Shown here: in pieces, positions 33,688 to 64,000 of the stretch
Numbering within the stretch: the stretch's first letter is position 1
Layout of the letters: each line of letters begins with the position of its first letter
From: Pyrrhoderma lamaoense
Lineage: Eukaryota; Basidiomycota; Agaricomycetes; Hymenochaetales; Hymenochaetaceae
Direction of reading: 5' to 3'
Length of the DNA: 64,000 bases
Assembly: GCA_002794735.1 (NCBI GenBank)
Contig: NBAZ01000003.1
Location: 186,001 to 250,000, forward strand
Translations under genes and position numbers: made by a program
Notes under the pieces: generated by a model
Databases searched by the model: none
What the model was told of the DNA's origin: nothing
The model's input: only the letters and a program-made list of their open reading frames with translations

Positions 33688-34359
33688 CTACAGGATTTCC
33701 TTTTTGGGTTGAGGCTCTTTGTCGTCGACAGTGGTTTGTATAATGTTTTCCCTGGGCTCCGTCTGAACATTATCCTCGTCGGCTTCGTCGTACTCATCCT
33801 CGCTCTCATCGTCACCATCGTAATAAGTCTCATCACCTTTATCGTCGTATCCATCATCACTGTCGTTGTCATCCTCATCGCCGTCATCATCATCGGCCTC
33901 ATCCTTATATCTTTTCTCTTCCCGGAATTTGTTTTCTTCCCCTTCTCTTCCTCGTAATCACTGTCTTCATCTTCGCTATCGCTGACTACCAGGTCGTAGA
34001 CTTCATACCACCCTTGTTCCCCTCCTAAATATCGCTCTGTGTTTTTGTAAACTTCGTTCTACTTGCTGTCTCAGCATCAGAACAGGATACAATATTACAG
34101 AAGTACTTACCCAGTCTCTAATCTGGATAGCCTCGATGACCCGAGTCCGGGCTGACTTGTATCCCCGATAGCCTTCCCTAAGAAGGGTGGGCATCGTCCT
34201 TAACGATCTTATAAGCAGGCTAAGTAGCACATCATACGGAGAAACGAACTTTATAATGGCGACGACGGCCATTCGAGCTTCTTTAATTGGCATACCCTTT
34301 ACCCGAGCGTATAGTCTCGGGTATCGAGCAAAGGGTGACGTCTGTGCCGCGCGTGTCAT
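33688..34359 (-). CDS. Acidic-tail protein, array copy A
   Basis: Unrecognised protein paired with metacaspase A, which lies 460 bases upstream on the same strand. Exon 1 (34359-34111, 83 codons) encodes a basic, hydrophobic domain: TSPFARYPRLYARVKGM, a FVSPYDVLLSLLIRSLRTMP helix and a Lys/Arg-rich GYRGYKSARTR end. Intron 34035-34110. Exon 2 (34034-33688) begins RYLGGEQGWYEVYDL and turns into a tail made mostly of Asp and Glu, ending KKEIL. One base is missing in the purine run about 50 bases upstream of 33905; with it the product is 198 residues. The strong charge contrast between the halves is shared by all copies. No known family recognised. Confidence 0.65.
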
Positions 34360-34819
34360 GTTATGGGTTAAGTAGTGCAGGCATACAATGGAAGTGGTTG
34401 CGTATTGGCGCAACTTATATAGCCGTGTGAGGGTTCAACATCCAACAACAACAACAACAGCACTTACGTCACAAATAATCTCAGGGATCTCAAAGTCACA
34501 CGGTCGACGCTGTCCTTCTGGCGATAAGCATCCTTCGCTATACATAGCGAACTTCTCGATGTTATATCGCGAGCAATGGTGAGACTTACTTGATATAATA
34601 TTTTATACACTAACTACTCTCCATATCTCTTTGAAGAGATATAATTTCTACTTATTGTTGTTGAAATCTCAATCAATCGAATGAAAACTGCAGTTCTTGT
34701 GCAAACAATCGATCAACTACCAAAATCTAAAAGTACAGAATTGTATATCATGACAATTTATATATGTACAAACTCGACAATTCTTGTCGACTATTCTGAA
34801 TGAAAAGCGTAGTGAAATC
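34360..34819. other. Spacer between metacaspase A and acidic gene A
   Basis: Holds the promoter of acidic gene A, with a TATATAG element near 34418-34424 and an (AAC)5 microsatellite at 34445-34459, at the same relative place in all copies. Nothing coding. Confidence 0.5.
34445..34459. repeat. (AAC)5 microsatellite, unit A
   Basis: Trinucleotide tract in the spacer between metacaspase and acidic gene; the repeat number differs between units. Confidence 0.8.
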
Positions 34820-37360
34820 TCACTGAGCTGGATTTCTGTCTGTTTATCCATATTCTTCAATACTACCATGATTTTTTCGCACCTCCCACGAAACAGGTTT
34901 TGGAGGCTTCTCACTGAAGCTATCTTCTCGATCTTTCACAAAAGGACTCTCTTGTTCCAAACTTTCTACTGAATTGTTAGGACGGTTAGTGACAATTACC
35001 AGAAGGTATACAATCTTGTCCTGATCTTCTATCTCAGGTGTCCAAGGTGCCACGTCCTCTTCTCCATATCCAATTGACAGAGAACGTCTAGGTAAAAGGG
35101 GTCCATCAAGATTGTTGCTAGTAGGGGAGCTATACCATAGACCTAATCACTCATCAGTTTGTGTGCACTCGCTGGGGATATAAAGCTCACGTATTTGCAA
35201 GTCTCGAGTGTCAAATCGTAGAACGTAGACATAAACACCATACGGCGACCCATTGGTTATCTTCATCCCATAACTAGGTGAGCGTTTCTTTTGACTGCTT
35301 CTTGGAGTATATATCCATCACCTCCGGCAAATTTTTCTACAGGTGTTTTAGAAGGTTGAAGGTGGTGGATAAAGTATCATCGTAAAACATATGTTGAATC
35401 AGAACGAGTGAGAAGTTGCAATTCGATTACGATCTGATCCAAGTAATTCTCGCTTGGGGTAGTACAAACATACGAAATATCAAGATAGCGACAGAATTTG
35501 GAAGCTGCCTCGATGACGCGTAGAATGTCCTCGATGTCTGTTACTAGAATCGGTTGGCCGATAGTCAAATCCTGAACCTCGCTTTCAATTGTTCAGCATT
35601 CCAAGTAAAAACTGCACATTCAGATTTCTGGTTATTCTTGTTCGCCACGGAGTCAAGTGACATGACGAGTTTCGCTTCTTTTTCTCCCTTTCCGATATGA
35701 CTGCAAGTCGCGAAAGCTTTAAATTTTGTAGAACTTTTGATACGTTCAATTTCTTGACTCGCCCCCTTACGAGAATCGGCAGTTTGTATTCATCACCGAG
35801 CCCCGTTAGACGAGCATAGAACTTTGATGGAATAGTATCAGACTTTTCCAATTGGGAGAATGATTGGTGTGTATTCACACTATGAATTTCGATTCTGCAT
35901 ATACAAGGCGTATCATCTTTCTGGGGTATCTTTTCAAAGATTTCGAATACAGCTCCCACAGAGATTCCCGAGGTACCACCGGCATGAAGTACAGCAAGTT
36001 TTATTGGGCCATTTCCCTCGCCTTCGTGGTCTCGCACGAAGCCGCTTATGTAGCTTGCATTCGCCACATCCTCGCGGAATAAGTATCGATGAGTGAAGTT
36101 GCTTTCGCATTGAGGGTGTTGCTTGTTATCATCATTGCTTCAATAATTCTCTTGTTAGCTCATATTGTATTCCTGAAAAGGTGAAAGGAGCTTACACAAC
36201 CGACATCTTGAAATACTGAATCAACTCCCCGTATGTGAAATTTGGCCAAAACGGGTCATGTAGGAGTCTCAGTAATGCCTGTGTGAAAAATCCACCATCA
36301 GATTTTTCCCTTGCTTTCTCATCTCTGGCACAAGCGGAAAGAAGGATAGAGATGTCGAGGATATTGACAGCAGATTTGACGGGTATTCTGTGTTATTGAA
36401 TGCCAGATCGGCATCGGTGATAGGAGAAGATGTGTCACTATCTATTCCACGGACTCGAATTTCAGCGTCCGAATCTCCTCCAAGTCTAAGTCCATGTCCG
36501 GAATGACAACAATCCAAACAAACAATCTGTCATGAGTTGATATCATTATATAGTTTAGAAAAGATGCAGTTACACTGAGATGCTCACAATGTTGTCGGTC
36601 TTTACGACTTCGGAAATTTTCTGAACCATTGATTTTAGCAATATGTCTGGATTCCTTTGATCATATTTCCTTCTTCATCTATAGTATTGATGTCCACGGA
36701 CATATTGCTTCAATCTTTCCATCCTCAGTTTGAGGGTCGTGTGCCCTGCACTCCTTTGAAACGAGGGTACGTGTACCATGTCCGGAAAAATAGATCAGAA
36801 TTGTACTTCCATCCTTGACAGTAGTCGGAGAAGGGGTCCAGAAAGACTCTAAAGCAGTAAGAATACCCTTTCTGGTTGCCTTTTCATTCCTGAGTACCCT
36901 TATATTCTCGCTTGGAACATGAAGTGTAGTTCTCAGAAAGCGTTCCACGTCGTTAGCATCCTTTCAGAAGACGTTAGTTTCATCAATCCCTGATAATCGT
37001 TGATCCCTATGACAAGTGCATGTAACTCTTTCTCGAGATGACTCAACACACTTCAGTATTGAGATGCACGCATAATATAGTATCACGATACTTACAGTAG
37101 AGGATATGCCACCTCTGGGCTAAATTCCGATATATTTTCCAGGCTCTTTACCGAGATCCGTTTCGAGATCCCATCCGAACTCTCCTTCGAGCTCCCCTCT
37201 AATCCTTCCTCCCGGTTCTCCTCCATGGGCGTGGCGCTCTCTTCATCCTGTGAGTCCTTACTTGAGTGATGAGCGAAGGTAACCTGTGATTCATTTTCCT
37301 CACAGATTTAAATAGCCACCTCAGTAACAAACAGAACCATTCTTTCAGCTGGCCCCACAT
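34820..37360 (-). CDS. C14 metacaspase, array copy A, frame-broken
   Basis: Caspase-domain cysteine protease of the basidiomycete type. Exons read about 37360-37096, 37041-36588, 36526-36196, then a long exon to 35191, and a last exon 35142-34820. The catalytic His is in IYFSGHGTRT near 36780 and the catalytic Cys in DCCHSGHG near 36505. The N-terminus MWGQLKEW starts a short acidic prodomain. The region after the protease domain (GFVRD, VFEKIPQ, FCRYLDIS, VYVYVLRFDTR) is shared with copies B and C. Frame breaks relative to intact copy B lie near 37255, 36960, 36705, 36665 and in the 35190-35900 exon, and the last codons are shifted by one C. Either a decaying paralogue or an unpolished repeat copy. 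Confidence 0.75.
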
Positions 37361-39109
37361 AGCTTCACACTGGTAAGACTAGCAAAAGTGAACTCAAGTT
37401 AAAAGAAGTATAGCTGGCTAGTAGGTTGCTACGCTCATCTCTCATCCTTATACATCATATAGATTTGAACTTCTTACCCGCGCTTAGAGCCCTATTAGAT
37501 GCTAACGTCTATTGTAAATTAACGGCACTAAAGGGGGTTTGATTCGGTTCGAATACGGATTCCTCCAGCCAATGAAAGCTGATCATCGGGTTGCAGTAAT
37601 CTCCTTCAGACGTGATAAGTGTATAAATATATGTCCATACGATTGACATTTACTAGGTTTCCTCCACTTCCTGACCTCAAATACGCTGAAGCCGGGGATT
37701 GAGTCACCATAATCTTTATTGCACTCCACATTTATGATTAGTTCAAGTTATAATGCCCACTCTTGTGACAATCATGCGAAAGAATATCTTGTGACAAAAT
37801 GTTACATGAATCTTATAGAAAGTAGTAATAAGAACCAACTAGGAAGTTACAATTCCTCTGAACATCTGTCCAAACCAAAGCCCTAAGTACTCTTGCATCC
37901 TTTTCGAATCCAATAGGAGAAACTCATCATGGTCCAAAAGAGGATTTAGCTCTCCGATCTGTAAAAGGTACCACAAGCCTAACAATTACATATCTTGATG
38001 TCAGTATTGCTGATATTCCACTGCGCGTTAAACATGCGTATGTAGACCGCAGCCGATTCCCAAATGATATGATTGTAGTCACCTAGCGTAAAACCAATTG
38101 ATAAGGTCTTATGACTAGTTGTTGAATTCCGCTTTTTTATAACACGGTCTAGAATCATGGCCTGTAATCACAGTCTAGGACAGGATCAACCTCATTTTCA
38201 TGATATCAGTGTCGCGAACAGACTAAATTCTATGCTTTTGATGCACGTGCGTAGGTTATATAGTTTTCTCTTGATGTAGAAGTTTCAGATTTGTTTTTCG
38301 TCGAATTCTATGAGGCGGGTATAGAATCTTAGCGGAAATTACCGACAGCGCTCCTAATTATATTTGTTGTTGGATCTACACACCTAGTAGTAGTCTTCCA
38401 AGTACTACTTGAAGTAGTATTAATCGGGGCTGAAGATACATATCTAGATTATAGACATCATAATTAGCTCCTTTAGACGCAGTAATGCGGAAGTTCCGTA
38501 ATAGAAAGTTTCCAATACCAATTACATCTCTGTCTGAGAAACACGGTGGTATATATTAATCAGATCATTGGCTCGTGTGATGATATCAATCAATGAGGTC
38601 GGGAAAGTACATCTAGTATATCATATTTGTTAATCGATATGCATGAGATGAGTCCGATTCTCACAGTTTATGATAGGTTACCAGTGCATTTTCCTTTGTC
38701 GTAGTTTCAGCTTCAAGCTAGAATAATAGAGAACCATTTTTGTAGTATGCGGAAGCCCACGTTGCTAGAATTGAAATTATCAGGACGCATAAGATCAAGT
38801 ACTCATAAATAGCATTTCTTTGGCTAACCCAAGAACCAATGAGCATTTTGCACATTATAGGTATTGTAAATCGGATACAATTAGTGCAAATCAGGAATAC
38901 GATGAATCATTAGATTCACAAATGTGAAATATAGCTAATGTGCCTATCAAGATAGTTAAGTCGTGGGAAATCAAGGATCTAGAGAATCATTTCCTTTTCT
39001 CTTTCTTATTCTGATAAGTGATAATAAATAGGCGTCTGAAGACAAGAAAGGTCGATGTGGACCAGGATACTTGATAAACGCCATTACGCTATCTGAATAT
39101 AATCAATAT
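37361..39109. promoter_or_regulatory. Long conserved upstream region of metacaspase A
   Basis: No gene is seen, but the sequence aligns over most of its length with the regions upstream of metacaspases B (44226-46300) and C (52099-53800). Shared islands include CACGTG at 38244-38249 and GTACATCTAGTATATCAT at 38607-38624. The homology stops near 39090, where the next unit begins. Confidence 0.55.
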
Positions 39110-40326
39110 ATTGTATTTCAGCTATCTGCCAAATGATGTGTATCAAATACGTCTGATCCTTTCAGTCTGTAATTCGTCACCGAGGCATGATTCTTTTGAA
39201 GTGTTTACTTCTACGCTCGAGCCCTTAACGAATATAATAAGTATTTCACGAGTGGTTTGTGCATGCCTTGTTGAGCTTGACGCGATTTCATGAGGGGAAG
39301 TAGTGTAATGCGCACATGGATAGTTTAATCTCAAGAATCAATATGTACTTTGTACCACAGTATTACATACTTTCTACAGAACAAAGACAATGATGATTTT
39401 CTACGCGCAAACAATGCTGAGTCTCCTTCTTCGGTAGTGTGATTTAGAAATTCAGAAAACTGCATCCGTCTAGGCAATAACATGCTCAGAGATAGTATTC
39501 GCATTGAGTAAAGTGCGTGAGAATTTTTCCTTGCATTAACATTTTTAAAATTTTATCATTTAAATCTGATCAGTCGCAAAATTTTGTACCCCCACTATCG
39601 TCCAGAGTGCCATGTCCTAAGCAGACTCAAGTTGTTGAAACTGCTCGAGCCCAAATCTGAATCGTAAACCTGCTTTTGCACTTTCATATCCACTCAAGCC
39701 AACTTTTTCTCTGCCCTTCGTCAAAAGATATCTATGTAATCTTCGGTGCATATTTTACACGCACACACACAAGATCTTGCAGATAGAGACCAAACTTTGA
39801 TGCACGAAGAGATTATGTATAAACAGACTAATACTAATATATCTCCTAGCAATCTGCTATGAGGAGCATATCAAGATGGACAAGTGGTTGAGAAGAAATA
39901 GCTTGACGTACGCTCTCCAATAATTGGATGTCATCAATTTTTCTCTCTTTCCTGTCGACGGGAGCTATCTTGTCTCGGGACAGCATTTCATCGACTGCTC
40001 CTCTGACTCAATACCAGTCAGATAGACCGCGCGCTGGTACTGTGATGGGGCCATATGTATCTCACTGAACGCATACTCATATGCACGTGTATATTATCTC
40101 TTGTTTCGTGGTGTGTACTGCTTTGACTATGCTTCAGTACTAATGGGTTATTACTTGTGCTTGTTACGGAAGTATGCAGATGTTGATTTATTCATACGAC
40201 TCAAGTCAGATTCACTGAGCTGGCAACGCGCTTTTGGGGTGTAATGATACAGGTATAATACTTCGAATTTGAATAAAGATAAATACGAAGGAAGGGGAAG
40301 GAGGAAGAGAAAACAGAATAGTACGT
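39110..40326. other. 3' flank of acidic gene B, duplicated at 47067
   Basis: Non-coding flank. It matches 47067-48260 moderately up to about 39294 and almost perfectly from there on. Includes a short CA repeat near 39760. Confidence 0.5.
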
Positions 40327-41130
40327 CTACCATAGATGTTCTTTTTTGAGTTGAGGCTCTACGATGTTGACGATGGTTTGGACGGTCTCGCCGTCATCGT
40401 CACCACCGTCATAATAGTAGCAGTGGATATAATCTTCGTACCCATTCTCGTCATTATATTCACTTTCATACTCATACTCATACTCATACTCCTCCTCGCT
40501 CTCAGCCTCATCGTCGGCCTCTTCCTCGGATCCAGACTCCTCCTTGAATTTGTTCTCTTCCTCGCTCTCTTCTTCGAAGTCACTGTCTTCGTCTTCGCTA
40601 TCGCTGATAGCCAAGTCGTAGGCATCATACCACCCCCTTTCTCCGCCTAAATATCGCTCTGTAACTTTGTATGCTTTGTTCTACTTGCTGTCTCAGCATC
40701 AGAACAGGATACAATACTACAGAATTACTCACCCAGTCATTACACTGGATGGCCTCGTCGGCCCGTGTCCCGGCCGACCTATACCCCTTATACCCATCCT
40801 TGAGAACGGCGGGCATCGTCCTTAACGATCTTATCAGCAGGTTAAGTAGCACTGCATATGGAGAAACGAACCTTACGATGGCTTTGACGACCATCCAAGC
40901 TTCCTCTTCAGTCATGCCCTCTACCCATGTATACAGTCTCGGGTATCGCGCGAAGGGCGATGTTGGTACCGCGCGCGACATTTTGTGATGGTAGTGTGAA
41001 AGAAGGAGATGTAGTAGGAATAATCTTGTGTTGGCGCATCTTATATGTGTTCAACATCAGGTATTTACGTAACAGGAAGTTCAACAAAACCATCGATTCG
41101 TATCACGAACTCTAAATTATCCGAATTACA
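39295..41130. repeat. Direct repeat, left copy (pairs with 47241-49040)
   Basis: A near-identical 1.8 kb block containing the whole of acidic gene B and its 3' flank. The offset to the partner is about 7.93-7.95 kb. Both ends are sharp: outside the block the copies drop to clearly lower similarity. Confidence 0.85.
40327..40981 (-). CDS. Acidic-tail protein, array copy B (intact)
   Basis: Intact 192-residue protein of unrecognised family. Exon 1 is 40981-40733 and exon 2 is 40656-40327, with a 76-base GT-AG intron. The N-terminal 83 residues have a net basic end and an amphipathic core (SPFARYPRLYTWVEGMTEEE, then VRFVSPYAVLLNLLIRSL). After the junction (RYLGGERGWYDAYDL) comes SDSEDEDSDFEEESEEE and a long Glu/Asp/Tyr tail containing the short repeat EYEYEYEYES, ending KKEHLW. 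No signal peptide. It follows intact metacaspase B on the same strand. Because this pairing recurs in each array unit, a functional link such as substrate or regulator is plausible but unproven. Confidence 0.75.
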
Positions 41131-41139
41131 GACAAAGAG

Positions 41140-41219
41140 ATGCTAAGAAGCATACCCTCCACCTGTGCGCATGGTCTTGGGGATCGCGCGAAGAGTGATG
41201 TCGGTTCTGCGTGTGTCAT
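41140..41219 (-). pseudogene. 5' fragment of a second acidic-gene copy (unit B)
   Basis: Read on the minus strand from an ATG at 41219, about 25 codons match the start of the acidic gene (MTHAEPTS, FAR, then VEGM). The match then stops. The fragment sits directly after the upstream spacer with its TATA element and (AAC)n, exactly where copy A has its complete gene. It looks like the leftover 5' end of an older acidic gene next to the newer intact copy. Confidence 0.6.
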
Positions 41220-41303
41220 TATATAGGTAAAGTAGTGCAGACATATAATGAGAGTGATTTCGTGTTGGCGCAGCTTATATAGCGATGTGAGAGTTCAACA
41301 TCC

Positions 41304-41315
41304 AACAACAACAAC
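41304..41315. repeat. (AAC)4 microsatellite, unit B
   Basis: Same position as in unit A, with one repeat fewer. Confidence 0.75.
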
Positions 41316-41651
41316 ACCTACGTCACAACAAACTCAAGAAGACCGCAGAAAGTTACATGGCCGACGCTATAGTTCTGGCCGCGAGCATGTTTCGCTTTAC
41401 ATAGCGAACTTCTCGGTACTCTAGCGCGAGTATTGGCGAGAGTTACTTGTTATTATATTCAATACATAAACCACTTTCCCTATAAAGAAGAATAATTCCT
41501 ACTAATTTTTGTTGAGCAAATTGTTCTTTATCTCAATCAGTCGAATGAAAACTACATTTCTTGTTACAAACAGTTGACCAACTACTAAAACCATAAAGAA
41601 CAAACTCGACAATCTTTTTTGACTGTACTAAATGAAAAGTGTAGTGGTCTT

Positions 41652-44225
41652 TTACTGAGCAAAGATCTCTGTTTGTTTATCCATTTTTTTGTGTACTACC
41701 ATAACTTTTTTCGCTCCCCACCACGGAAATTGAGTTAGATCTTTCTCGGAAAGAGGTTCATCTAAACTTCTCTTAATCATACTCACAAAAGGATTACCTT
41801 GTTCCAAACTTTTTATCGCGTAACTGGGACGGTTGGTGGCGATAACCAGAAAGTATACAACTTTGTCACGATCTTCCGTTCGGGGTGTCCAAGGATCCAC
41901 AGCTTCTTCTCCATATCCAATTGTGAGAGAATGCTTAGGTTTAAGGGGCCCTCCATTTTTGTTACTGGTATAGGGATTATACCACAAATCTAATCACTCT
42001 TTAGTTTTTGTAATCATGGAGTCATGGAAAACAACAAGCTCACGTATCTGCAAGCCTCGAGTGTCAAATCGTAGAACGTAAACATATAGCTTATGTCCGG
42101 ACCCGTTGGCGATCTTCATAACATACCCAGGCGTGTTTCGTTGGTTGTCCTCCGAAAGTATATACCTTTTGACACCGTCAAAATTATCAAAAGGAATTTC
42201 AGAAGATTGAGATTCGCTGGGTGTAGTTTCATCATAGAACCTGTCACATTCGAGACGTTGCAATTCGATCTCGATTTGGTCCAAAGGATCCTTGTTTGGC
42301 TCATGAAAAGCAGTAGGAACAGTATAAATATCAAGATATCGACAAAAGTTGGCAGCTGCCCTAATGATTCGTAGAATGTCTTCATTATTAACTATTGGAA
42401 TCGAGTTGCCAATAGTTGAATCCTGGATTTCGCGAGCAACACCACCAGTGCCCCACTTAAAGACCACGCAGTCAGATTTCTGATTCTCAGTGTCTCGATT
42501 CAATATTAGTTTCGCCTCCTCTTCATCCCCTTCGTTATGACTGCAAGTTGCAAAGGCACTAAACTCTGGGGAACTCGTGATGCTTTGCTCAATTGCTGTA
42601 AGACCCTTCCCAAAGAATACCCGTATCTTATGCTTATCACCGAACGTTACTAGACGAGCAAAGAACCTCGATGGAATGTCATCTCCTTCTTGCAACTCAT
42701 AGAACGATCGATGCCCAGACGCTTCTTGAATCGTGATACGTTTGCCACTCGTAGGAGGCGTATCATCCTGGGGTATCTTTTCAAATACTTCGAGTACAGC
42801 TCCTTTAGAGATTCCCGAGGTTTCGCCGGCATAGAGTACAGCTTCTTTCCACGTCTGATTGGGTCGCACGAAGCCCCTTATATACCCTGCATTCGCTACA
42901 TCCTCCCGGAATAAATATCGATGAGTGAGGTTGCCTTCGCATTGAGGGTGTTGCTTTTGTGAGTTGATATCATCCCTGGTTTTGCATTTTAATTGTAAGT
43001 TCATAATGTACCCCTGAAAAGGTGAAAGGCGCTTACACATTAGGCATCTCAAAATACTGTATCAGTTCCTCGTATGTATAATCTGGCCAGGACGGTTCAC
43101 GTAGGTGTCTTAGTAACGCCTGTGTAAAGAATCCACCATCAGAGCTTTCCATTGCACTCTGATCTCTGCCACAAGCAGAAAGGAGGATAGAGACATCGAG
43201 AATATTGACAGTAGATTCGACGGGGTGCATAGTGTTATTAAAGACCAGATCATCATCAGTGATGAAAGATCCATCGCTGCTATCTACCCCACGAACTCGG
43301 ATCCCATTCTCCGAGACCCCGTCTCTGAGTCCATGCCCAGAATGGCAATAATCAAAGATAACAATCTAGTATGAGTTGTTCAACATTTTATAGTTAGAAA
43401 ATGGGGTCACCCTAGAATGCTCACAATATTGTTAGTCTTTACTACTTCAGAGATTTTCTGAACCATCGATTTTAGCATAATGTCTGGAATCCCTTTGATT
43501 ATCTTTCCTTCTTCATCAATAGTATCGATATCAACAGGACAGAGTGCTTCAATCATTCTGTCATCAGTTTGAGGGTCGTATGCCTTACACTCCTTCGAAA
43601 CAAGAGTACGTGTACCATGTCCGGAGAAATAGATCAAAATTGTACTTCCATCCTTGATAGTGGTCGGAGCAGGGATCCAGAAAGACTCTAAAGCAGTAAG
43701 AATACCCTTTCTGGTTGCCTTTTCATTGCTGAGTACCCTTATACGCTCGCTTGGAACAAGAAGTGTATTTTTCAGAAAATGTTCCACATCATCAGCATCC
43801 TTCACAGCAGACCCTAGTTTCTTCAAACTCTGATAATCGTTGATCCCTATGACAAGTGCGTGCAACTCTTTCTCGAGATGACTGAATACACTTCAATACT
43901 AAGATGTACGCATGATGGAGTATCACAATACTTACAGTGGAGGATATGCCATCTCTGGGCTATCTTTGGGATCCCCCTCCAAATTCTTGGCCGAGCTCTC
44001 CTCTAGACTCTCCTTCAAGATCGGCCCCTCCACGTTCTCGATCGAGATCTCCTGTAGACTCTCCATCAAGATCTGTACTGGGATCTCACTTAGGGGGATG
44101 GAACTGTCTTCAATCTGTGGATCCTTTCCTGAGGATGGGGAGAAGGTGGCCTGTGGTTTACCCGTATCATAGATTCTGAATAGTTGCCCCTTTAAATTAC
44201 GGAGCCATTTCTTCAGTTTCTCCAT
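41652..44225 (-). CDS. C14 metacaspase, array copy B (intact)
   Basis: Full-length caspase-domain cysteine protease; fungal metacaspases act in stress responses and regulated cell death. Five exons (44225-43936, 43881-43425, 43365-43037, 42975-42044, 41989-41652) sum to 2346 bases, 781 residues, with no frame correction. An N-terminal acidic region of about 97 residues precedes HALVIGINDY at residue 104. The catalytic His185 is in YFSGHG and Cys256 in DYCHSG. Here the residue before the catalytic Cys is Tyr, while copies A and C have Cys. The C-terminal 420 residues carry VFEKIPQDD, FCRYLDI and YVYVLRFDTR segments of unknown fold. The start was chosen by matching the first residues of copies A and C; an upstream in-frame ATG at 44258 also exists. 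Confidence 0.85.
43017..43590. repeat. Near-identical metacaspase block, left copy (pairs with 51014-51587)
   Basis: Covers the catalytic-Cys exon, the preceding intron and the 3' part of the catalytic-His exon. It matches copy C with only a few differences, whereas the adjoining parts of the two genes are clearly diverged. Confidence 0.8.
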
Positions 44226-46518
44226 TCTGTTACGCACTGTACAACACTGGAGAGTCATAGCAATAGTGAGCCCAGATAGTGAAGATATATCTCGCCAGGG
44301 CTACTACGATAATCTCTCATTCTTATACATCGTATAGATTTGAAATTCTTATCCTGGGTTAGAGCCCCATTTAATGTTATGAATGTCAGTGTCTATTGTT
44401 AGTTAACAGAACCAAAAGGGGTTTGATTCGGTTTGAATGTGGCTGTTTGGTACATTAATGGAAGCTGATCTTCGGATTGTGGTAGTCTCCTTCAGACGTA
44501 GTAAGTGTAGAAACAGTTATGATCAAACGACGTTGATGATTACGACAATAGACTGGACCTCCTCCACTTCCTGACCTCAAAAACACTGAATCCGGGTTTC
44601 AAGTTACCATAATCTTTGTAGCACTCCATATGGATGGCTCAGATTATAATTCCCATCCTTGAGACAATCATAGTTAAAAAAAGATCATCTTATATAAAAG
44701 ATGAGTCTTATAGAAAGTAATAAAGAGGATTTTACAAATTCACTTAATCACCTGGCCAAAGTAAAACCCCAAGTACTATTGCTTCCCTTTCCGAGTCCAA
44801 CAGGAGAAACTCCATCATGGTTCAAAAGAGGCTCTAACTCTCCAATCTGTAAAAGGTACCACAAACCTAACAATCACATAGCTTGATCAGTGACTTATGA
44901 TATTCTTTGACGCCTTGCTGATATTCCACTAGGCGTAAAACATGCATGTATAGGATGCAGCCGTTTCACCAAATGAGCTCGTAAAACCAATTGATAAGGT
45001 CTTATGACTGGTTGTTGAAAGCCAGTTTTTATATCATGGCCTGAATCGTGGCCCGGAATCACGGTCTAAGACAGGGTCCACCTTACCTTGATGGAACCAG
45101 TGTCGCGATCGGGGTAAAAGTTTTATGCCCTTGATGCACGTGCGTAATTTTTAAGGTTTTTTCTTGGTGGTGAAGTTTCAGATCTGTTTTTCGTCGAGTT
45201 CTATAAGGCGAGTATAGAGTCTTAGCGGAAAGTACTGACATCGCCCCGAGATATATTTGTTGTTGGATCTACACGCGTAGCAGTACTGATCTGGGTGAAG
45301 ATACCTATCTAGGTTGTAGACATCACAATCAGCCCCTTAAGATGCAGTAATGAGGAAGTTCCGTAACAGAAAGATTACAATACCGGTTACATCGCTGTCT
45401 GAGAAACACAAAGGTATGTATTATTTGTAGTCATTGGCTCATATGATGATAGCGAACATCGGGGTCGGGAAAGTACATCTAGTATATCATCTTTGTCATC
45501 TGATGTATATAAGATAAGTCCAGATCTCACAGTTTATAATAAGATACTAGTGTGTTATTCTTTGACTTGGTTACATCAAGCCGGAGTATCAGAGAGTCAA
45601 TGTTGTTGTATGATAAAGTCCTCGTTGTTGTAATCAAATTAATCAGGACACATTAAGATCAAATACTCGTGAATAATATTTCTTTGGCGAACTCAAGATG
45701 AGCGTTTTGTACAATATCATATTGAGTGTGGGGAGTTGAAAATCGGCTACAATTAGTACAAATCAGGAAAACAATGAATCACTTGATTCACAAATGTGAA
45801 ACAAAGGTAATGTTCCTAACAAGGTAGTAAAGCTCGTGGGAAATCAAGGATCTAGAGAATCATTTCCTTTTTTCTTTCTTATCCTGATAAATGATAGTAA
45901 ATATTAGCGTCTGAAGCTAGGAAGACTGATATGAACCAGGATATGTGAGAAACATCACTACACTATCACCTGAATGTAATCAATTGCGAAGTTTAGCACT
46001 TCTGCTATCGCCCAGAGCAACCGCATCCCTCATCCTGGATAGACTAGCTAATAATCTTTCTAGCTTTGATCTTGTTTACGCCCCTACGATTTCACTATAT
46101 TCTCTAAGAAAACTAACTTGCCTATATGCAGGATATCTATGAAAGCGGCTGTGTATGTACATACACAAGACCCCAGTAATGTACAAGGTTTTGAAGTCCC
46201 ATAACTCACTAAACTTAGTATTCTACTTAACGCATCTTTCTCTATATAAGCATGATTGTCGCCTCTTCTTTGTGGTATATCACACTTTAAGCATGCTACA
46301 AAGTTCAATTACTAATAATTGAATGTATGATTGATCGCACGCAGTTTATAATTTGAAGTAAACAATTAGTGATTATAACTCGACCAACTCAGGCCATTAC
46401 TGTCGTAATATGGCTCTGCTGCAATGCGCCGGTACGAATGTGATATACTACCTACCTATATAGCTGAGGGAATAGAGAATAAGGAGAAAAAAAGCGGATG
46501 AACTAGAAACTAGGTTTA
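44226..46518. promoter_or_regulatory. Long conserved upstream region of metacaspase B
   Basis: No gene supported. Aligns with the upstream regions of copies A and C, with CACGTG at 45137-45142 and GTACATCTAGTATATCAT at 45473-45490. The stretch 45945-46320 is also present upstream of copy C but missing from A. Confidence 0.55.
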
Positions 46519-47060
46519 CTATGCAGGATCCTGTTCAATTTAAGATTCTTTATCATCGACGGTGGTGAGTGTTGTCTTTCTCTCGGGCTCCGTTCTAACA
46601 CTGAGCATGCAGGTCTCGATCATCATCGCTAGTGTCTTAGAAATAGCCATCTCGAACCCGTCTTCGTATCTATACGTGTATTTGTCCTCCTAGCCCTCCT
46701 AATTTTTATCGGCATAATCATCGTCGTCAGCGAATTCTTCTTCGAGCTTATCATCTCCTTCAGTATCTTTCTCGAGCTCTTAGTCACTGCTCTCGCTAAC
46801 GACCAGTTAGCAGTCATCTTTCTTCCCATTTCTCCCGCTCAAAAACTGCTCTGTTGTTGTGACATGAAGAATAAGATCCAATATAACAGAAGTACCCACT
46901 CGATTTCTATCTTATTTTGAAAGGTATCGATGGCCTGCGTGTAGACAGATATATATCCATTATACCTGTCCCTGGGGATGGGGGGGGGCATTGTACTTGA
47001 CGAATAAAGTTTATCGCCGACTGCGAAACTTGAAGGTGTGAAGTAATCGTAGTTATGACT
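46519..47060 (-). pseudogene. Acidic-tail gene remnant E, orphan
   Basis: A degraded copy of the acidic gene without a neighbouring metacaspase of its own. On the minus strand the end of exon 1 is recognisable by a TMP motif, a YNGY segment and a terminal E-W before the intron. The tail region still has a purine-rich, acid-coding composition, but stop codons and frame changes interrupt it. The first 25-30 codons are missing; the sequence changes at about 47060 into the flank of unit C. Contains a G8 run at 46980-46988. Confidence 0.6.
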
Positions 47061-47066
47061 CCTATG

Positions 47067-48260
47067 ATGAGGGTAGCAAATGATGTGTATCAAATATGTC
47101 AGATTCTTACAGTTTATAGTATGTCACCGATGCGTTTCCCTTCTGAATTGTTTGTCCTTAAGCTCGAGCCCTTAACGAATGTGATAAGTACTTCGGAGGG
47201 GTTTGTGCATCCCTTGTTGAGGTTGACGAAATTTCGCGAGGGGAAGTAGTGTAATGCGCACATGGATAGTTTAATCTCAAGAATCAATATGTACTTTGTA
47301 CCATAGTATTACATACTTTCTACAGAACAAAGGCAATGATGATTTTCTACGCGCAAACAATGCTGAGTTTCGGTAGTGTGATTTTGAAATTCAGAAAACT
47401 GCATCCGTCTAGGCAATAACATGCTCAGAGATAGTATTCGCATTGAGTAAAGTGCGTGAGAATTTTTCCTTGCATTAACATTTTTAAGATTTTATCATTC
47501 AAATCTGATCAGTCGCAAAATTTTGTACTCCCACTATCGTCCAGAGTGCCATGTCCTAAGCAGACTCAAGTTGTTAAAACTTCTCGAGCCCAGATCTGAA
47601 TCGTAAACCTGCTTTTGCACCTTCAACACTTAGGCCAGACTTTCTTTGCCATCGTCAAAGGACATCTATGTAATCTTCGGTGCATATTTTACACGCACAC
47701 ACACAAGATCTTGCAGATAGAGACCAAACTTTGATGCACGAAGAGATTATGTATAAACAGACTAATACTAATATATCTCCTAGCAATCTGCTATGAGGAG
47801 CATATCAAGATGGACAAGTGGTTGAGAAGAAATAGCTTGACGTACGCTCTCCAATAATTGGATGTCATCAATTTTTCTCTCTTTCCTGTCGACGGGAGCT
47901 ATCTTGTCTCGGGACAGCATTTCATCGACTGCTCCTCTGACTCAATACCAGTCAGATAGACCGCGCGCTGGTACTGTGATGGGGCCATATGTATCTCACT
48001 GAACGCATACTCATATGCACGTGTATATTATCTCTTGTTTCGTGGTGTGTACTGCTTTGACTATGCTTCAGTACTAATGGGTTATTACTTGTGCTTGTTA
48101 CGGAAGTATGCAGATGTTGATTTATTCATACGACTCAAGTCAGATTCACTGAGCTGGCAACGCGCTTTTGGGGTGTAATGATACAGGTATAATACTTCGA
48201 ATTTGAATAAAGATAAATACGAAGGAAGGGGAAGGAGGAAGAGAAAACAGAATAGTACGT
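47067..48260. other. 3' flank of acidic gene C
   Basis: Non-coding. Duplicate of 39110-40326; similarity jumps to near identity at about 47241. Confidence 0.5.
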
Positions 48261-49040
48261 CTACCATAGATGTTCTTTTTTGAGTTGAGGCTCTACGATG
48301 TTGACGATGGTTTGGACGGTCTCGCCGTCATCGTCACCACCGTCATAATAGTAGCAGTGGGTATAATCTTCGTACCCATTCTCGTCATTATATTCACTTT
48401 CATACTCATACTCATACTCATACTCCTCCTCGCTCTCAGCCTCATCGTCGGCCTCTTCCTCGGATCCAGACTCCTCCTTGAATTTGTTCTCTTCCTCGCT
48501 CTCTTCTTCGAAGTCACTGTCTTCATCTTCGCTATCGTAGGCATCATACCACCCCCGTTCTCCGCCTAAATATCGCTCTGTATATTTGTATACATTGTTC
48601 TACTGGCTGTCTCAGCATCAGAACAGGATACAATACTACAGAAATACTTACCCAGTCATTACACTGGATGGCCTCGTCGGACCGTGTCCCGGCCGACCTA
48701 TACCCCTTATACCCATCCTTGAGAACGGCGGGCATCGTCCTTAACGATCTTATCAGCAGGTTAAGTAGCACTGCATACGGAGAAACGAACCTTACGATGG
48801 CTTTGACGACCATCCGAGCTTCCTCTTCAGTCATGCCCTCTACCCATGTGTACAGTCTCGGGTATCGCGCGAAGGGCGATGTTGGTACCACGCGCGACAT
48901 TTTGTGATGATAGTATGAAAGAAGGAGATGTAGTAGGAATAATCTTGTGTTGGCGCATCTTATATGTGTTCAACATCAGGTATTTACGTAACAGGAAGTT
49001 CTACGAAACCATCGATTCGAACTCTAAATTATCCGAGTTA
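47241..49040. repeat. Direct repeat, right copy (pairs with 39295-41130)
   Basis: Contains all of acidic gene C and its 3' flank. Most differences from the left copy are single substitutions and small indels, one of which removes five codons from the acidic gene in frame. Confidence 0.85.
48261..48900 (-). CDS. Acidic-tail protein, array copy C (intact)
   Basis: Intact 187-residue paralogue of copy B. Exon 1 is 48900-48652 and exon 2 is 48575-48261. The N-terminal domain differs from B at only a few residues. The tail lacks five residues around the AYDL/SDSED junction through an in-frame deletion, so it reads AYDSEDEDSDFEEE. The EYEYEYEYES repeat and the KKEHLW end are conserved. It lies downstream of metacaspase C on the same strand, as in units A and B. 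Unknown function; purifying selection is suggested by the clean frame and the in-frame indel, in contrast to metacaspase C. Confidence 0.72.
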
Positions 49041-49164
49041 CTCAGATTTATTCTTTTTTATTGAGAAGGCAGATGACATCTAGAAGTAATTCCCTTTTTG
49101 AGTGTTGCTTTTTATTATCAGATTCGCGCCCATAATATCAGCATTCGAGAATTGCAGACCAACA

Positions 49165-49245
49165 GATACTAAGAAGCATACCCTCCACCCGTGCGCGTAC
49201 TCTTGGGGATCACGCGAAGAGAGGCATCGGTGCCTCGCGTGCCAT
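49165..49245 (-). pseudogene. 5' fragment of a second acidic-gene copy (unit C)
   Basis: Counterpart of the fragment at 41140-41219. An ATG at 49245 starts a short match to the acidic gene (M-A-R-E-A-P, F/L-F-A type start, then G-G-Y), followed by loss of homology. It lies between acidic gene C and the (AAC)8 tract. Confidence 0.55.
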
Positions 49246-49320
49246 TTTATAGTTAAAGTAGTGCAGACATACAATGGAAGTAAGTGTTATCGCAACTAAT
49301 ATAGCTATGCGAGAGCATCC

Positions 49321-49344
49321 AACAACAACAACAACAACAACAAC
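49321..49344. repeat. (AAC)8 microsatellite, unit C
   Basis: Longest version on this strand; equal in length to the inverted tract of unit D. Confidence 0.8.
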
Positions 49345-49649
49345 ACTTACGACTCTATCCATCCTGGCGATGGGCATTCTTCTCTATGCATGGCGAGTTT
49401 CTCGTTATTCTATCGAACACTAGTTAGATTTATTCGATAACAAGTTTTATTGTTATGATAATCCATCAAAAATAATTTCTACTTAATGTTGTTAAGCAAT
49501 TTCTCCCTATCACAGTTCCTGTTACTCACAATCGGTTTACTTGTAAAACCTGATAATAAAGACATGTATATCATGACAAATGACAAAATGTATTTGTAAA
49601 AACTCGACAACTCATATCGACTATACTATATGAAAAGCACAGTGAAATC

Positions 49650-52098
49650 TCACTGGGCTGGGATCTCTGTCTGTTTATCCATATTCTTCAATACTACCAT
49701 GATTCTTTTCGCACCTCCCCACGAAACAGGTTTTGGAGGCTTCTCACTGGAGCTATCTTCTCGATCTTTCACAAAAGGACTCTCCTGTTCCATACTTTTT
49801 ATTGCATTGTTAGGGCGGTTAGTGACAATTACCAGAAGGTATACAATCTTGTCATGATCTTGCATCTCGGTGTCCAAGGTGCCACACTCTCTTCTCCATA
49901 TCCAATTGTGAGAGAATGTTCAGATAAAAGAGCGCCTTCAAGTCTGCTACTAATGTGGGAGCCATACCATAAACCTAATCACTCATCAGTTTATGTGCAC
50001 TCGCTGGGGATATAAAGCTCACGAATTTGCAAGTCTCGAGTGTCAAATCGTAGAACGTAGACATAAACACCATACGGCGACCCATTAGTTATCTTCATCC
50101 CATAACTAGGTGAGCGTTTCTTTCGGCGGCTCCTTGAGAGTATATATCCATCGCCTCGGGCAATTTTTTCTACAGGAGTTTTAGAAGGTTGAAAGGTGGG
50201 GGGTAAAGTATCATCATAAAACATGTCTGAATCAGTACGAGTGAGAAGTTGCAATTCGATTACAATTTGATCCAAATACCTCCCGATTGGGGTAGTGGAA
50301 ACATGCGAAATATCAAGATAACGACAGAATTTGGAAGCTGCCTCAATGACGCGTAGAATGTCCTCGATGTCTGTTACTGGAATCGGTTGGCCGATAGTCA
50401 AATCCTGAACTTCGCCTTTCAATTGTCCAGCATTCCAAGTAAAAACTGCACATTCAGATTTCTGATTATTCTTGTTCGCCACGGAGTCAAGTGACATGAC
50501 GAGTTTCGCTTCTTTTTCTCCCTTTCCGATATGACTGCAAGTCGCGAAAGCTTTAAATTTTGTAGAACTTTTGATACGTTCAATTTCTCGACTCGCCCCC
50601 TTACGAGAATCGGCAGTTTGTATTCATCACCGAGCCCGTTAGACGAGCATAGAACTTTGATGGGATAGTGTCAGATTTTTTCAACTTGGAGTATGATTCA
50701 TGTGCAATCACACGATAAGTTTCGATCCTGCATATACAAGGCGTATCATCATCCTGGGGTATCTTTTCAAATACTTCGAGTACAGCCCCACAGAGATTCC
50801 CGAGGTTTCGCCGGCATAGAGTACAGCTTCTTTCCATGGCCCGTTTCCCGTTTCCTTGTCGTTGTAGTCTCGCACGAAGCCGTTTATATACCCCGCATTC
50901 GCTACATCCTCTCGGAACAAATATCGATGAGTGAAGTTGCCTTCGCATTGAGGGTGTTGCTTGATATCAATCTTGCTTTCATATTTTATTTGTTAGTCAA
51001 TATCGTATCCCTGAAAAGGTGAAAGGCGCTTACACATTAGGCATCTCAAAATACTGTATCAGTTCCTCGTATGTATAATCTGGCCAGGACGGTTCACGTA
51101 GGTGTCTTAGTAACGCCTGTGTAAAGAATCCACCATCAGAGCTTTCCATTGCACTCTGATCTCTGCCACAAGCAGAAAGGAGGATAGAGACATCGAGAAT
51201 ATTGACAGTAGATTCGACGGGGTGCATAGTGTTATTAAAGACCAGATCATCATCAGTGATGAAAGATCCATCGCTGCTATCTACCCCACGAACTCGGATC
51301 CCATTCTCCGAGACCCCGTCTCTGAGTCCATGCCCAGAATGGCAACAATCAAAGATAACAATCTAGTATGAGTTGTTCAACATTTTATAGTTAGAAAATG
51401 GGGTCACCCTAGAATGCTCACAATATTGTTAGTCTTTACTACTTCAGAGATTTTCTGAACCATCGATTTTAGCATAATGTCTGGAATCCCTTTGATTATC
51501 TTTCCTTCTTCATCAATAGTATCGATATCAACAGGACAGAGTGCTTCAATCATTCTGTCATCAGTTTGAGGGTCGTATGCTTACACTCCTTCGAAACAAG
51601 AGTACGTGTACCATGTCCGGAGAAATAGATCAGAATTGTACTTCCTTGCTTGATGGTGTTTGGAGCAGGAGCACAGAAGGACTCTAAAGCAGTAAGAATA
51701 CCCTTTCTAGTTGCCTCTCCACTCCTGAGTACCCTTATATTCTCGCTTGGAACAAGAAGTGTAGTTCTCAGAAAGCGTTCCACGTCGTTAGCATCCTTTT
51801 CAGAAGACCTTAGTTTCATCAATCCCTGATAATCGTTGATCCCTATGACAAGTGCGTGTAACTCTTTCTCGAGATGACTGAAGACGCTTCAGTATCAAGA
51901 AGTATGCGTGATGAAGTATCACAGTACTTACAATTGAAGGTTCGTTCCCTCCATAATCTTCTCAGGTCTCTCTTCCAGGGTCTCCTCCAGTCTCTGCTCC
52001 GGAGCCCCTCCTGGCTTCCCCTCCAGATAGTTTTTATCTCGGATTCTAGTTAGCCATCTCTCTGATAAACAGTGCCATTTTTTCAGCTTGCTCCACAT
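49650..52098 (-). CDS. C14 metacaspase, array copy C, frame-broken mosaic
   Basis: Same five-exon architecture as copy B: 52098-51932, 51877-51422, 51362-51034, a long exon to about 50025, and a last exon to 49650. Start MWSKLKKW; the prodomain is shorter than in B. Catalytic His in YFSGHGTRT near 51620 and Cys in DCCHSGHG near 51340 are present. The catalytic-Cys exon has the same length (329) as B and is nearly identical to it, whereas the 3' half follows copy A. Frame breaks: near 51581 (one C fewer than B), 50790, 50635 (CCC against CCCC in A) and 49872 (CC against CCC in D). Pseudogene or unpolished repeat. Confidence 0.75.
51014..51587. repeat. Near-identical metacaspase block, right copy (pairs with 43017-43590)
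   Basis: Matches copy B through the catalytic-Cys exon. One substitution changes the residue before the catalytic Cys (Cys here, Tyr in B). Confidence 0.8.
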
Positions 52099-53879
52099 TG
52101 CTCGAAATTGGCAAGGCTAGCAATAGTGGGCACAAATAGAGAAGGTATAGCTCGCTAGCAGGCTGCCACAATTATCTCACTCGTCGCTGTGCATCATATA
52201 GGTTTGAACTTCTTATCCGTGCTTGGAGCCCCATTGCAGGCTGTGACCAATATTAATTAACAACGTTATAAAGAAGGCTGATTCGGTTCATGTATGGCTG
52301 CTTTTTTTAAGTTATAGAAGGTAATTGTTTCCTTCAGACGAGATAAGACTGATCACATGGCCTTCAAAATCACGACAACGGGCTAGACTACCACTTTCCC
52401 GCCTTTAAGATAATTGAAATGGATAGTGTATTGCGCTGAGCTTGTCAATTTCTCAGCTTGATGTCATCAAATTCTTGTATTAGCATTACAAATTTTATAT
52501 GTTGACAGGTTCTTAGCACCCCATGATACAGAAACTATTTTTATCACAACCTAGAATCACGGCCTAGAGTGGGATCGGGTTAATTTGATGATGATATGTT
52601 AGGTCGCGAATAGACTAGGCGGGTTATGCTCTTTGATGCACGTGCTTGCACATAAGGTTTTACTTGAAGTAAACACAAAATATGTATTCTACGAAGTTCC
52701 ATATGGTAGACATCGGATATTATCTGTATGATGTATGGAAGTACGGCGAACTCCTGATATCGATATAAATACCCAGTGGCGTCCCCAAGAGGTAGTATAC
52801 TGAGCTGTGAAGTTTTTATAGGTTTAAATTATCGCATCCAGCTCTCTTAAACGCACCAATGCGGAAGTTCCGGAATAGAAAGTTTCCAAAATCATTCACA
52901 TCGCCGAATGCAAACTCCGTAGTTCTAGTACTCATAAGCATTGGTTAGCATGATATTATCAATCATCAAATAATGATATCGAAAAGGTACATCTAGTATA
53001 TCATGCTTGTTAACTGACTAGCATGCGACAAGTCCGATCCTCACAGTTTATGATCAATTATCGTGTGATCTCCTTTGAGATAGTTTAATCTCAAGCTAGA
53101 TATCAGAGTCATTTTTTAGTGTGTAATAGCCTGCATTTTTGTAAATAAAATTATCGGGATGTTCTAAACTTGGTACTATGAATAATAGATCTTTGACCAA
53201 CTCAAGAACAATTGGACAATACGGGGTATTGAGAATCAGCTATAAATCAGGAAATCGATGAATCAATTGATTTTCACATGTAAAATAAAGCTGCTATGCA
53301 CGTTAAGGTAGTCTCAAAATTGATTACCACTTCTTTTCTCTTTCTTATTGGTGATATGAAGTAGCAGCGTCTGGAATCAGACAGATTGATATGAATCAGG
53401 ATACGTGAGAAACCCCATTACACTATCATCTGAATGTAATCAATTGAGAAAATAGAGCGCTTCCACTATCATCCAGAACGCCCTCACCTTTGAAAGACTA
53501 ACTAATGATCCGTTCCAGCCTTGATTCTGTTTATGATCTTACTTACGCACTATATTCTCTGCAAAAACCGACGTCTCTCTTTACGGGTTATCTATGCAAG
53601 CTGGTGTGTATGCTAGTGTAACGTATAGGGTTTTATGGACAGGAGGAAGCTGGATAGCTCACAAAACTTAGCAATCTACTAAACGCACCTTCTCGATACT
53701 CTAAATATGCATACTTGTCATTTTCGTGGTACTTTAGGTTTTAAGTATTTGCAACTTATATCACTACTAATCGTTCGTATGATCAATTGCTCACAGTTTA
53801 CGATATGATGTATACAGGGTGTGTTTGTAAACTCGGATAACTCAGGACATTAAAACTGTACTCTGGCTCCGTTCGATCA
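52099..53879. promoter_or_regulatory. Upstream region of metacaspase C
   Basis: The most diverged of the three upstream regions, but it retains CACGTG at 52639-52644 and GTACATCTAGTATATCAT at 52987-53004. No coding sequence seen. It ends at the breakpoint of the inverted arm. Confidence 0.5.
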
Positions 53880-54270
53880 CTCGAGACTTGCAAATACGTG
53901 AGCTAGATATTTTTAGTTACTGCACACAAACTGATGAGTGATTAGGTTTATGGTATGGCCCCACATTAGTAGCAGACTTGAAGGCCCTCTTTTATCTGAA
54001 CATTCTCTCACAATCTGATATGGAGAAGAGAGTGTGGCACCTTGGACACCCGAGATGCAAGATCATGACAAGATTGTATACCTTCTGGTAATTGTCACTA
54101 ACCGCCCTAACAATGCAATAAAAAGTTTGGAACAAGAGAGTCCTTTTGTGAAAGATCGAGAAGATAGCTCCAGTGAGAAGCCTCCAAAACCTGTTTCGTG
54201 GGGAGGTGCGAAAAGAATCATGGTAGTATTGAAGAATATGGATAAACAGACAGAGATCCCAGCCCAGTGA
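53880..54270 (+). pseudogene. Metacaspase 3' fragment, array copy D (inverted)
   Basis: Plus-strand copy of the end of the metacaspase: a few codons of the penultimate exon (RDLQI), the intron, and the last exon through to the stop (PWTPEMQDHDKIVYLLVIVTN ... DKQTEI). The protease domain is absent; homology begins abruptly near 53880. From 54034 the frame is open to the stop at 54270 and here agrees with the frame expected from B, where copy C has lost a base. Confidence 0.75.
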
Positions 54271-54567
54271 GATTTCACTGTGCTTTTCATATAGTATAGT
54301 CGATATGAGTTTTCGTTATTTTACAAATACACTTTGTCATGATATACATGTCTTTAATATCAGGTTTTACAAGTAAACCAATCGTTTGTAACAGGAACTG
54401 TGATAGGGAGAAATTGCTTAACAACATTAAGTGAAAATATTTTTGATGGATTAATATAACAATAAAGCTTGTTATCGAATAAATCTAACTAGTGTTCGAT
54501 AGAATAACGAGAAACTCGCCATGCATAGAGAAGAATGCCCATCGCCAGGATGGATAGAGTCGTAAGT

Positions 54568-54591
54568 GTTGTTGTTGTTGTTGTTGTTGTT
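54568..54591. repeat. (GTT)8 microsatellite, unit D
   Basis: Reverse complement of the unit C tract within the inverted arm. Confidence 0.8.
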
Positions 54592-54674
54592 GGATGCTCT
54601 CGCATAGCTATATTAGTTGCGATAACACAAAGTCAAATACTTCCAGTGTATGTCTGCACTACTTTAACTATAAA

Positions 54675-54755
54675 ATGGCACGCGAGGCACCGATGCTCTC
54701 TCTTCGCGTGATCCCCAAGAGTACGCGCACGGATGGAGGGTATGCTTCTTAGTAT
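54675..54755 (+). pseudogene. 5' fragment of a second acidic-gene copy (unit D)
   Basis: Inverted counterpart of the fragment at 49165-49245, starting at an ATG at 54675 and losing homology after about 25 codons. Confidence 0.55.
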
Positions 54756-55020
54756 CTGTTGGTCTGCAATTCTCGAATGCTGATATTATGGGCGCGAATC
54801 TGATAATAAAAAGCAACACTCAAAAAGGGAATTACTTCTAGATGTCATCTGCCTTCTCAATAAAAAAGAATAAATCTGAGTAACTCGGATAATTTAGAGT
54901 TCGAATCGATGGTTTCGTAGAACTTCCTGTTACGTAAATACCTGATGTTGAACACATATAAGATGCGCCAACACAAGATTATTCCTACTACATCTCCTTC
55001 TTTCATACTATCATCACAAA

Positions 55021-55630
55021 ATGTCGCGCGTGGTACCAACATCGCCCTCGAACAGTACCCGAGATTATATGCACGGGTAGAGGGCATGACCAAGAAGAAG
55101 CACGAATGGTTGTCATCACCATCATAAAGTTCGTTTCTCCGTATGCTGTGCTACTTGACCTGCTGATAATATCATTCAGGACGATGCCACCCTCCTGAGG
55201 AAGGCTATCGGGGATACAAGTCAGCCGGACTCGGGTCATTGAGGCTATCCAGATTAGAGACTGGGTGAGTACTTCTGTAATATTGCATCCTGTTCTGATG
55301 CTGAGACAGCAAGTAGAACAAATTTACAAAGTTACAGAGCGATATTTAGGAGGGAACAAGGGTGGTGTGAAGTCTACGACTAGTAGTCAGCGATAGCGAA
55401 GATGAAGACAGTGATTTCGAAGAAGAGGCGGACGATGAGGATGAGAGCGAGGAAGAGGCCGACGATGAGGCTGAGAGCGAGGATGAGTATGAGTATGATT
55501 ATGAATACGAGAATGGGTACGGGATTATACCCACGGCTACTATTATGACGGCGGTGACGATGACGGCGAGACCGTCCAAACCATCGCCGGCGTCGAAGAG
55601 CCTCAACTCAAAAAGGAGCATCTATGGTAG
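55021..55630 (+). pseudogene. Acidic-tail gene, array copy D (inverted, broken)
   Basis: Begins with the same MSRVVPTSP start as copy C. Frame changes follow in the first 60 bases and again near 55185-55245, and an in-frame TAG-type interruption occurs just after the intron near 55380. The intron (about 55265-55336) and the acidic tail (D-E-D-S-D, E-Y-E-Y) are recognisable up to the TAG at 55628. Parts of exon 1 resemble copy A more than C (FVSPYAV, then SRTRV, IQIRDW), so it too looks mosaic. Not expected to give a full product. Confidence 0.7.

Positions 55631-62497: not shown

Positions 62498-64000
<1,503 letters not shown>

Follow-up and report, generated by a model that had tools for sequence, protein, structure and literature searches.

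In the basidiomycete Pyrrhoderma lamaoense, a 64 kb window of contig NBAZ01000003.1 (C3:186001-250000, the whole stretch of DNA analysed here) carries an array in which a large metacaspase-like gene of the C14 family is followed by a small gene ending in a strongly acidic tail. We tentatively propose, as the likeliest single reading although at less than an even chance, that the two genes make up a caspase module restricted to this lineage, in which the small partner is prone to bind membrane and is masked. In such a module the N-terminal part of the small protein (N-part) would be held safe by the strongly acidic C-terminal tail, and the naked N-part would bind membrane, or anchor or activate the metacaspase. 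Loss of the tail, either by a protease cut at Lys/Arg or in a tail-less splice form, would arm the N-part, and the armed small protein would trigger a regulated response, either damage or death. We infer the physical partnership, the tail masking, the membrane action and the cell-death role; in support of the reading stand the confinement of acidic runs to this gene within the window and their absence around other metacaspase places of the genome, the dyad motifs of the protease, the pattern of charge and hydropathy, the constraint on both genes between units A and B of the array, and a bacterial precedent for a caspase gene next to the gene of a small single-TM protein (PMC7159879). To our knowledge, little is known of the partners and substrates of such fungal caspase-like proteases. 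A protease gene paired with a small, selection-kept gene of unknown family offers a directly testable candidate partner and, if this partner is armed by tail loss, proteolysis or splicing would gate an effector that shows no relation to gasdermins or HeLo-type domains.

The metacaspase-like gene and its acidic-tail neighbour

Self-comparison of the window, by which the units were delimited, resolves the array into three units on one strand (A, B and C), a fragment in inverted orientation (D) and the decayed remains of a further acidic gene (E; Table 1). It thereby bears out an earlier sequence-only reading of this stretch, which had described a repeatedly duplicated pair of a C14 gene and an acidic-tail gene in units A, B and C. 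The intact genes of that reading are found in unit B, the only unit in which both are intact; the metacaspases of A and C and the tail of A are frameshifted, and D is broken. All three same-strand units have the 83 codons of acidic exon 1 on the 3' side of the metacaspase (both on the minus strand), after a spacer of 670 nt in B and, measured from aligned ends, of about 460 nt in A and about 750 nt in C.

The four introns of the unit B metacaspase-like gene (54, 59, 85 and 54 nt) are all bounded by GT..AG, and the fourth (42043-41990) takes out an in-frame TGA near the gene end. The start was set at 44225 and not at the upstream ATG 44258 because A and C share the former (by eye). The protein is recognized by the C14 profile PF00656 with 72.2 bits against a cut-off of 21.4, and its SGHG and DYCHSG motifs align with yeast Mca1. 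We take the His of SGHG and the Cys of DxCHSG to be the catalytic residues, and some positions of the substrate pocket also align with Mca1. A database search with the B protein (7989 candidates scored) returned 22 matches at E<=0.001, of which the best 16 are named Agaricomycete proteins; of the remaining six, one is named and bacterial. The large caspase-domain proteins of Agaricomycetes (for example, Rickenella, Armillaria and Dendrothele; P0002-P0013) have the same Peptidase_C14 domain and a long C-terminal half, and one of them, P0003, is 30% identical over 84% of the B protein, which differs from these relatives in an N-terminal extension of ~96 aa ahead of the C14 core. With the type I metacaspase Mca1/Yca1 of yeast, the dyad motifs and the p20 region could be aligned (E 1.2e-6 to 4f6o), but the match is confined to residues 74-272 of the 784-aa B reading and leaves the long C-terminal half without a match. 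The predicted structure of the relative P0002 has a predicted local distance difference test score (pLDDT) of 73, and, of the 64 chains that Foldseek matches to it at E<=0.001, the best 50 are of the caspase/metacaspase type. PADLOC likewise matches the B metacaspase to its caspase model, and matches the small protein to nothing. The large gene is that of a metacaspase-like cysteine protease of a type that occurs in mushroom-forming fungi.

The N-terminal exon of the small gene is basic (net +3) and hydrophobic, as the sequence-only reading had stated, with one hydropathy peak (KD19, from residue 32) of 1.67 in B and C and 2.01 in A; the N-part is short, hydrophobic and basic, and perhaps helical. 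We searched the six frames of the window for 40-residue runs with at least 45% Asp/Glu and observed them in four stop-to-stop frames, all four of which are the tail of the acidic gene in A, B, C and D. We rejected the idea that the tail arose by chance or through a wrong frame, since the sole four runs in 64 kb belong to the acidic gene and the frame is constrained.

This constraint is seen between A and B, which are old paralogues (dS 0.32-1.24 by exon); B and C are recent ones, or mosaic. The A-B ratio of non-synonymous to synonymous change (dN/dS) is 0.36 (p 9e-4) in acidic exon 1, and 0.28 (p 1.5e-5) in exon 2. For metacaspase exons 1-5 the ratios are 0.53, 0.26, 0.26, 0.41 and 0.32, and over the exons of both genes the Fisher p values run from 0.027 to 5e-9. 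Both acidic exons also have an excess of third-position substitutions (p 0.011 and 0.008), and the B-C comparison is barely informative, with p 0.33 for exon 2 of the acidic gene and p 0.08 for that of the metacaspase. Changes that alter an amino acid are thus scarcer than silent ones in every exon compared between A and B, that of the acidic tail among them, which marks both as genuine genes. Selection on the acidic frame shows that the acidic-tail reading is in use.

The acidic second exon is, as read from the open frames, one of three readings of the gene. Two acceptors of its intron, CAG and TAG, lie 7 nt apart: the TAG acceptor (52-nt intron) leads to the acidic tail and, in B, a protein of 200 aa, the CAG acceptor (45-nt intron) to 103 aa, and the unspliced message to 118 aa. 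The 103-aa and 118-aa readings are tail-less and net basic, and are open in all three copies examined (A, B and C). The Asp/Glu tail that the sequence-only reading assigned to the second exon is accordingly obtained with the TAG acceptor (net charge -36), and not with the CAG acceptor or on intron retention. Because the other acceptor, or no splicing, gives a tail-less protein, the small protein could lose its tail through RNA processing, with no need for cleavage, an alternative that the sequence-only reading does not raise.

Relatives and comparison with known systems

When 5.77 billion proteins were searched with the small protein, 10 had words in common with it but none reached E<=0.001; distant relatives could be missed here because this search requires shared 5-residue words. 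A close named relative of the host is also missing from the matches, which limits what a failed search says about a gene that evolves fast. Of the pattern stretches in viral (23) and GTDB (424) contigs, none was confirmed, and nothing significant was found in NCBIfam, PHROGs or the PDB (no PDB match below E 0.1). Neither the 200-aa protein nor the 118-aa readings have a Pfam match over the cut-off, and a cell-death domain of the HeLo, HELL or SesA type is absent from the same Pfam scan. In the genome itself (30.65 Mb, 72 contigs), the acidic N domain was found in the window alone, with 5/5 matches of the B query and 4/4 of the A query lying there. As to the observations that would refute the sequence-only reading, the own-genome and database searches gave no copy of the acidic gene apart from a caspase gene, but none outside the array either, so that conservation of the small gene beyond the array is unproven.

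Used as queries on the genome, the core of the B metacaspase and two of its relatives likewise match within the window alone (13/13, 10/10 and 3/3), as does PF00656 (4/4). These window-only results are limited because genes broken up into short exons escape a six-frame search. That the window is the sole C14 site of the genome was rejected, as a piece of yeast Mca1 gave 13 matches of which 12 are outside it, and five other metacaspase places could be identified (C3:375.6k, C5:1424k, C6:1054k, C9:340k and C23:147k). The five 9 kb stretches around them hold no acidic run and no match to the small protein (5/5). In one, C9:336500-345500, yeast-metacaspase-like pieces are present at three spots over about 5.5 kb, and this is perhaps a separate tandem metacaspase cluster. 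Among the titles and abstract openings listed by literature searches, none describes a fungal acidic-tail gene beside a C14 gene.

The layout of a protease gene with a small gene is a familiar one, because most fungal gasdermin genes (>80%) are reported to cluster with a protease gene (PMC12881547). The same source gives a length of 244-257 aa for the fungal gasdermins RCD-1 and a cut near residue 238 for HET-Q1, and in the HET-Q1/HET-Q2 and CHAT-gasdermin pairs described there a short C-terminal loss accompanies activation (PMC12881547). An adjoining protease gene is also seen here, with the C14 gene upstream of the acidic gene in unit B, whereas the protease is metacaspase-like and the tail of its neighbour highly acidic. 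In place of a pore-forming N domain of ~240 residues, the small protein has an N-part of 83-118 aa with a helical, low-confidence model and no family match over the cut-off. By these tests its membership in the gasdermins (HET-Q1) is not supported, and the parallel to HET-Q1 that the sequence-only reading had drawn is weak.

The B pair comes closest in design to the bacterial EACC1-caspase system, where a caspase-superfamily gene is paired with the gene of a small protein with a single transmembrane helix, for which a role as a membrane sensor that activates the caspase has been proposed (PMC7159879). The gene order is reversed relative to that system, and an acidic tail is absent from the published EACC1 description (PMC7159879). 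NCBIfam matches the B caspase with one model alone, that of the EACC1-associated caspase, with 43.7 bits against a cut-off of 140, which falls short of assignment to that subfamily, and this model also matches 12/12 other aligned fungal relatives. As the score is far under the cut-off and all these relatives match too, the likeness to EACC1 would be one of design, not of membership. No NCBIfam match was found for the small protein at E<=0.1, though it was not checked whether NCBIfam contains a model of EACC1 itself.

Weighing of the alternatives

Several observations weigh against a functional module. Linked genes duplicate together whatever their function, so that the co-duplication of neighbours is no proof of partnership. 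The small gene has no relative outside the array in the searches made, so that its association with caspases is seen in this one place. It can also be retained alone, since the acidic gene of unit C is open beside a broken protease. The predicted structure of the N-part, derived from a three-sequence alignment, is poor, with four helices at a pLDDT of 54. Lastly, the open reading frames (ORFs) of the A and B spacers share seven short similarities (15-41 residues), because of which an additional element in the unit is possible. An absence of any functional link, with an orphan gene adjoining a caspase-family gene by chance and the two being co-amplified by unequal recombination in an array that is now decaying, would suit the mosaic units, the inverted D, the relics and the frameshifted copies, and linkage alone would force the co-duplication. 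We hold it to be somewhat unlikely, given that both genes were constrained over the long A-B divergence, although this constraint shows that each gene worked and not that they worked jointly. The small protein could instead be an inhibitor or antidote that binds and restrains the protease, for example at a basic N-terminal helix or a Lys/Arg-preferring pocket, and not be its substrate. An acidic gene that stays open beside the broken protease of C is what one would expect of a harmless restrainer, and the N-terminus of the B metacaspase is indeed basic (net +5 over the first 35 residues). A simple acidic inhibitor leaves unexplained why the N-part is hydrophobic and why tail-less readings are open, and we regard this alternative as unlikely.

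In another explanation, the gene is switched at the RNA level, where acceptor choice or intron retention yields tailed and tail-less forms and proteolysis of the tail is unneeded. The closely spaced acceptors and the basic tail-less readings of A, B and C agree with such a switch and, in unit A, where the tail is frameshifted, the tail-less forms alone end ahead of the shift. The intron is also unusually similar between A and B (49/52 identical sites), above exon 1 (190/249, p 6e-4) and the four metacaspase introns (179/236, p 0.002; individually 71-81%), and it is the most similar segment between copy E and the acidic gene (25-27/33 aligned sites, with 19 gap columns). This comparison was, however, made post hoc, after the pattern had been noticed, and the B-C intron differs at 3/52 sites, above exon 1 (5/249) and the tail (2/274), although per site below the head of exon 2 (5/62). 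Local gene conversion could also account for the intron similarity, and a frame of 35 codons will stay open by chance fairly often (estimate about 0.15). A switch that acts by splicing alone seems to us quite improbable. Highly speculative, and the least probable of the readings considered, is a combination in which the RNA-level switch and the neighbouring metacaspase would be alternative ways to unmask one membrane-prone effector, safe with its acidic tail and armed without it, a eukaryotic counterpart of the EACC1-caspase system in design and not in descent.

Copies and relics in the array

The array is mostly a decaying amplification of the two-gene unit (Table 1). The mosaic metacaspase of unit C is 92.8% and 99.7% identical to B in exons 2 and 3, and its 3' part is nearer A (85% over 49513-51983, with blocks up to 99%); the acidic exon 2 of this unit (48599-48264) has a 5-codon deletion. 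No metacaspase match belonging to copy E was found in the self-comparison of the window. A TATA-like core followed by TGCGCCAA is common to the acidic promoters of A, B and C and to the B relic of the second acidic gene, and is altered in the relics of C and D.

Table 1. Positions in the window of the array units, their genes and the relics
Feature	Position	Strand	Remarks
Unit A	to ~39.1 kb	-	metacaspase and acidic gene; self-comparison
A metacaspase	34820..37355	-	frameshifted, several shifts
A acidic gene	33700..34359	-	open exon 1 (34359-34111) with 67% aa identity to B; one frameshift in the tail
A unspliced reading	34003-34359	-	118 aa
Unit B	~39.13-46.4 kb	-	both genes; self-comparison
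B metacaspase-like gene	41652..44225	-	773 aa, intact, five exons
B metacaspase exons	44225-43936, 43881-43425, 43365-43039, 42953-42044, 41989-41652	-	spliced model
B relic of second acidic gene	41150..41219	-	5' (exon-1) relic, between acidic gene and metacaspase
B acidic gene exon 1	40733..40981	-	83 aa, hydrophobic segment, net +3
B acidic gene intron	40681..40732	-	52 nt; alternative acceptors CAG (45 nt), TAG (52 nt)
B acidic gene exon 2	40330..40680	-	117 aa, 44 Asp/Glu, net charge -36
B unspliced reading	40625..40981	-	118 aa, net charge +8, without acidic tail
Copy E	46450..47150	-	decayed acidic gene relic between B and C; aligned region, limits approximate
Unit C	~47.08-53.87 kb	-	both genes; self-comparison
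C metacaspase	49650..52089	-	several frameshifts; mosaic, exons 2-3 B-like, 3' part A-like
C relic of second acidic gene	near 49176-49246		similar to B relic
C acidic gene	48264..48900	-	open; exon 1 48900-48652 (96% aa identity to B)
C unspliced reading	48544-48900	-	118 aa
Unit D	~53.88-56.46 kb		inverted; self-comparison
D metacaspase 3' fragment	53941..54267	+	about 115 C-terminal residues
D relic of second acidic gene	54675-54745	+	similar to B relic
D acidic gene copy	55021..55627	+	broken

In the body of the A metacaspase, 7/10 one-base losses fall outside homopolymers, and the alignments put one base loss at an identical position in the A and C metacaspases, which speaks against sequencing error as the sole source of the frameshifts. 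Elsewhere in the window, a tryptophan gene (GATase-IGPS-PRAI, 13400-15622) has a one-base frame change between its IGPS and PRAI parts when compared with an intact relative (P0023), a hint at minor indel errors of the assembly or at a true lesion. Among the 120 matches listed of 3157 for this gene, the nearest is an unnamed protein (86%), followed by Coniferiporia weirii (75%), with Fomitiporia at 71% and Sanghuangporus at 67%; these genera are Hymenochaetales, to which the host most likely belongs, although Serpula reaches 67% as well. Because the tryptophan gene also shows a frame change, assembly indels are possible; the A and C metacaspases broke later, with assembly indels as a possible part of the cause. 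A run of ~130 T is present at 62980-63109, and the neighbouring ORFs 22340-23215, 24009-25646, 30591-31217 and 60907-61314 carry an FGE-sulfatase domain, two matches of F-box type that stay under the cut-off of Pfam, and a TPR match.

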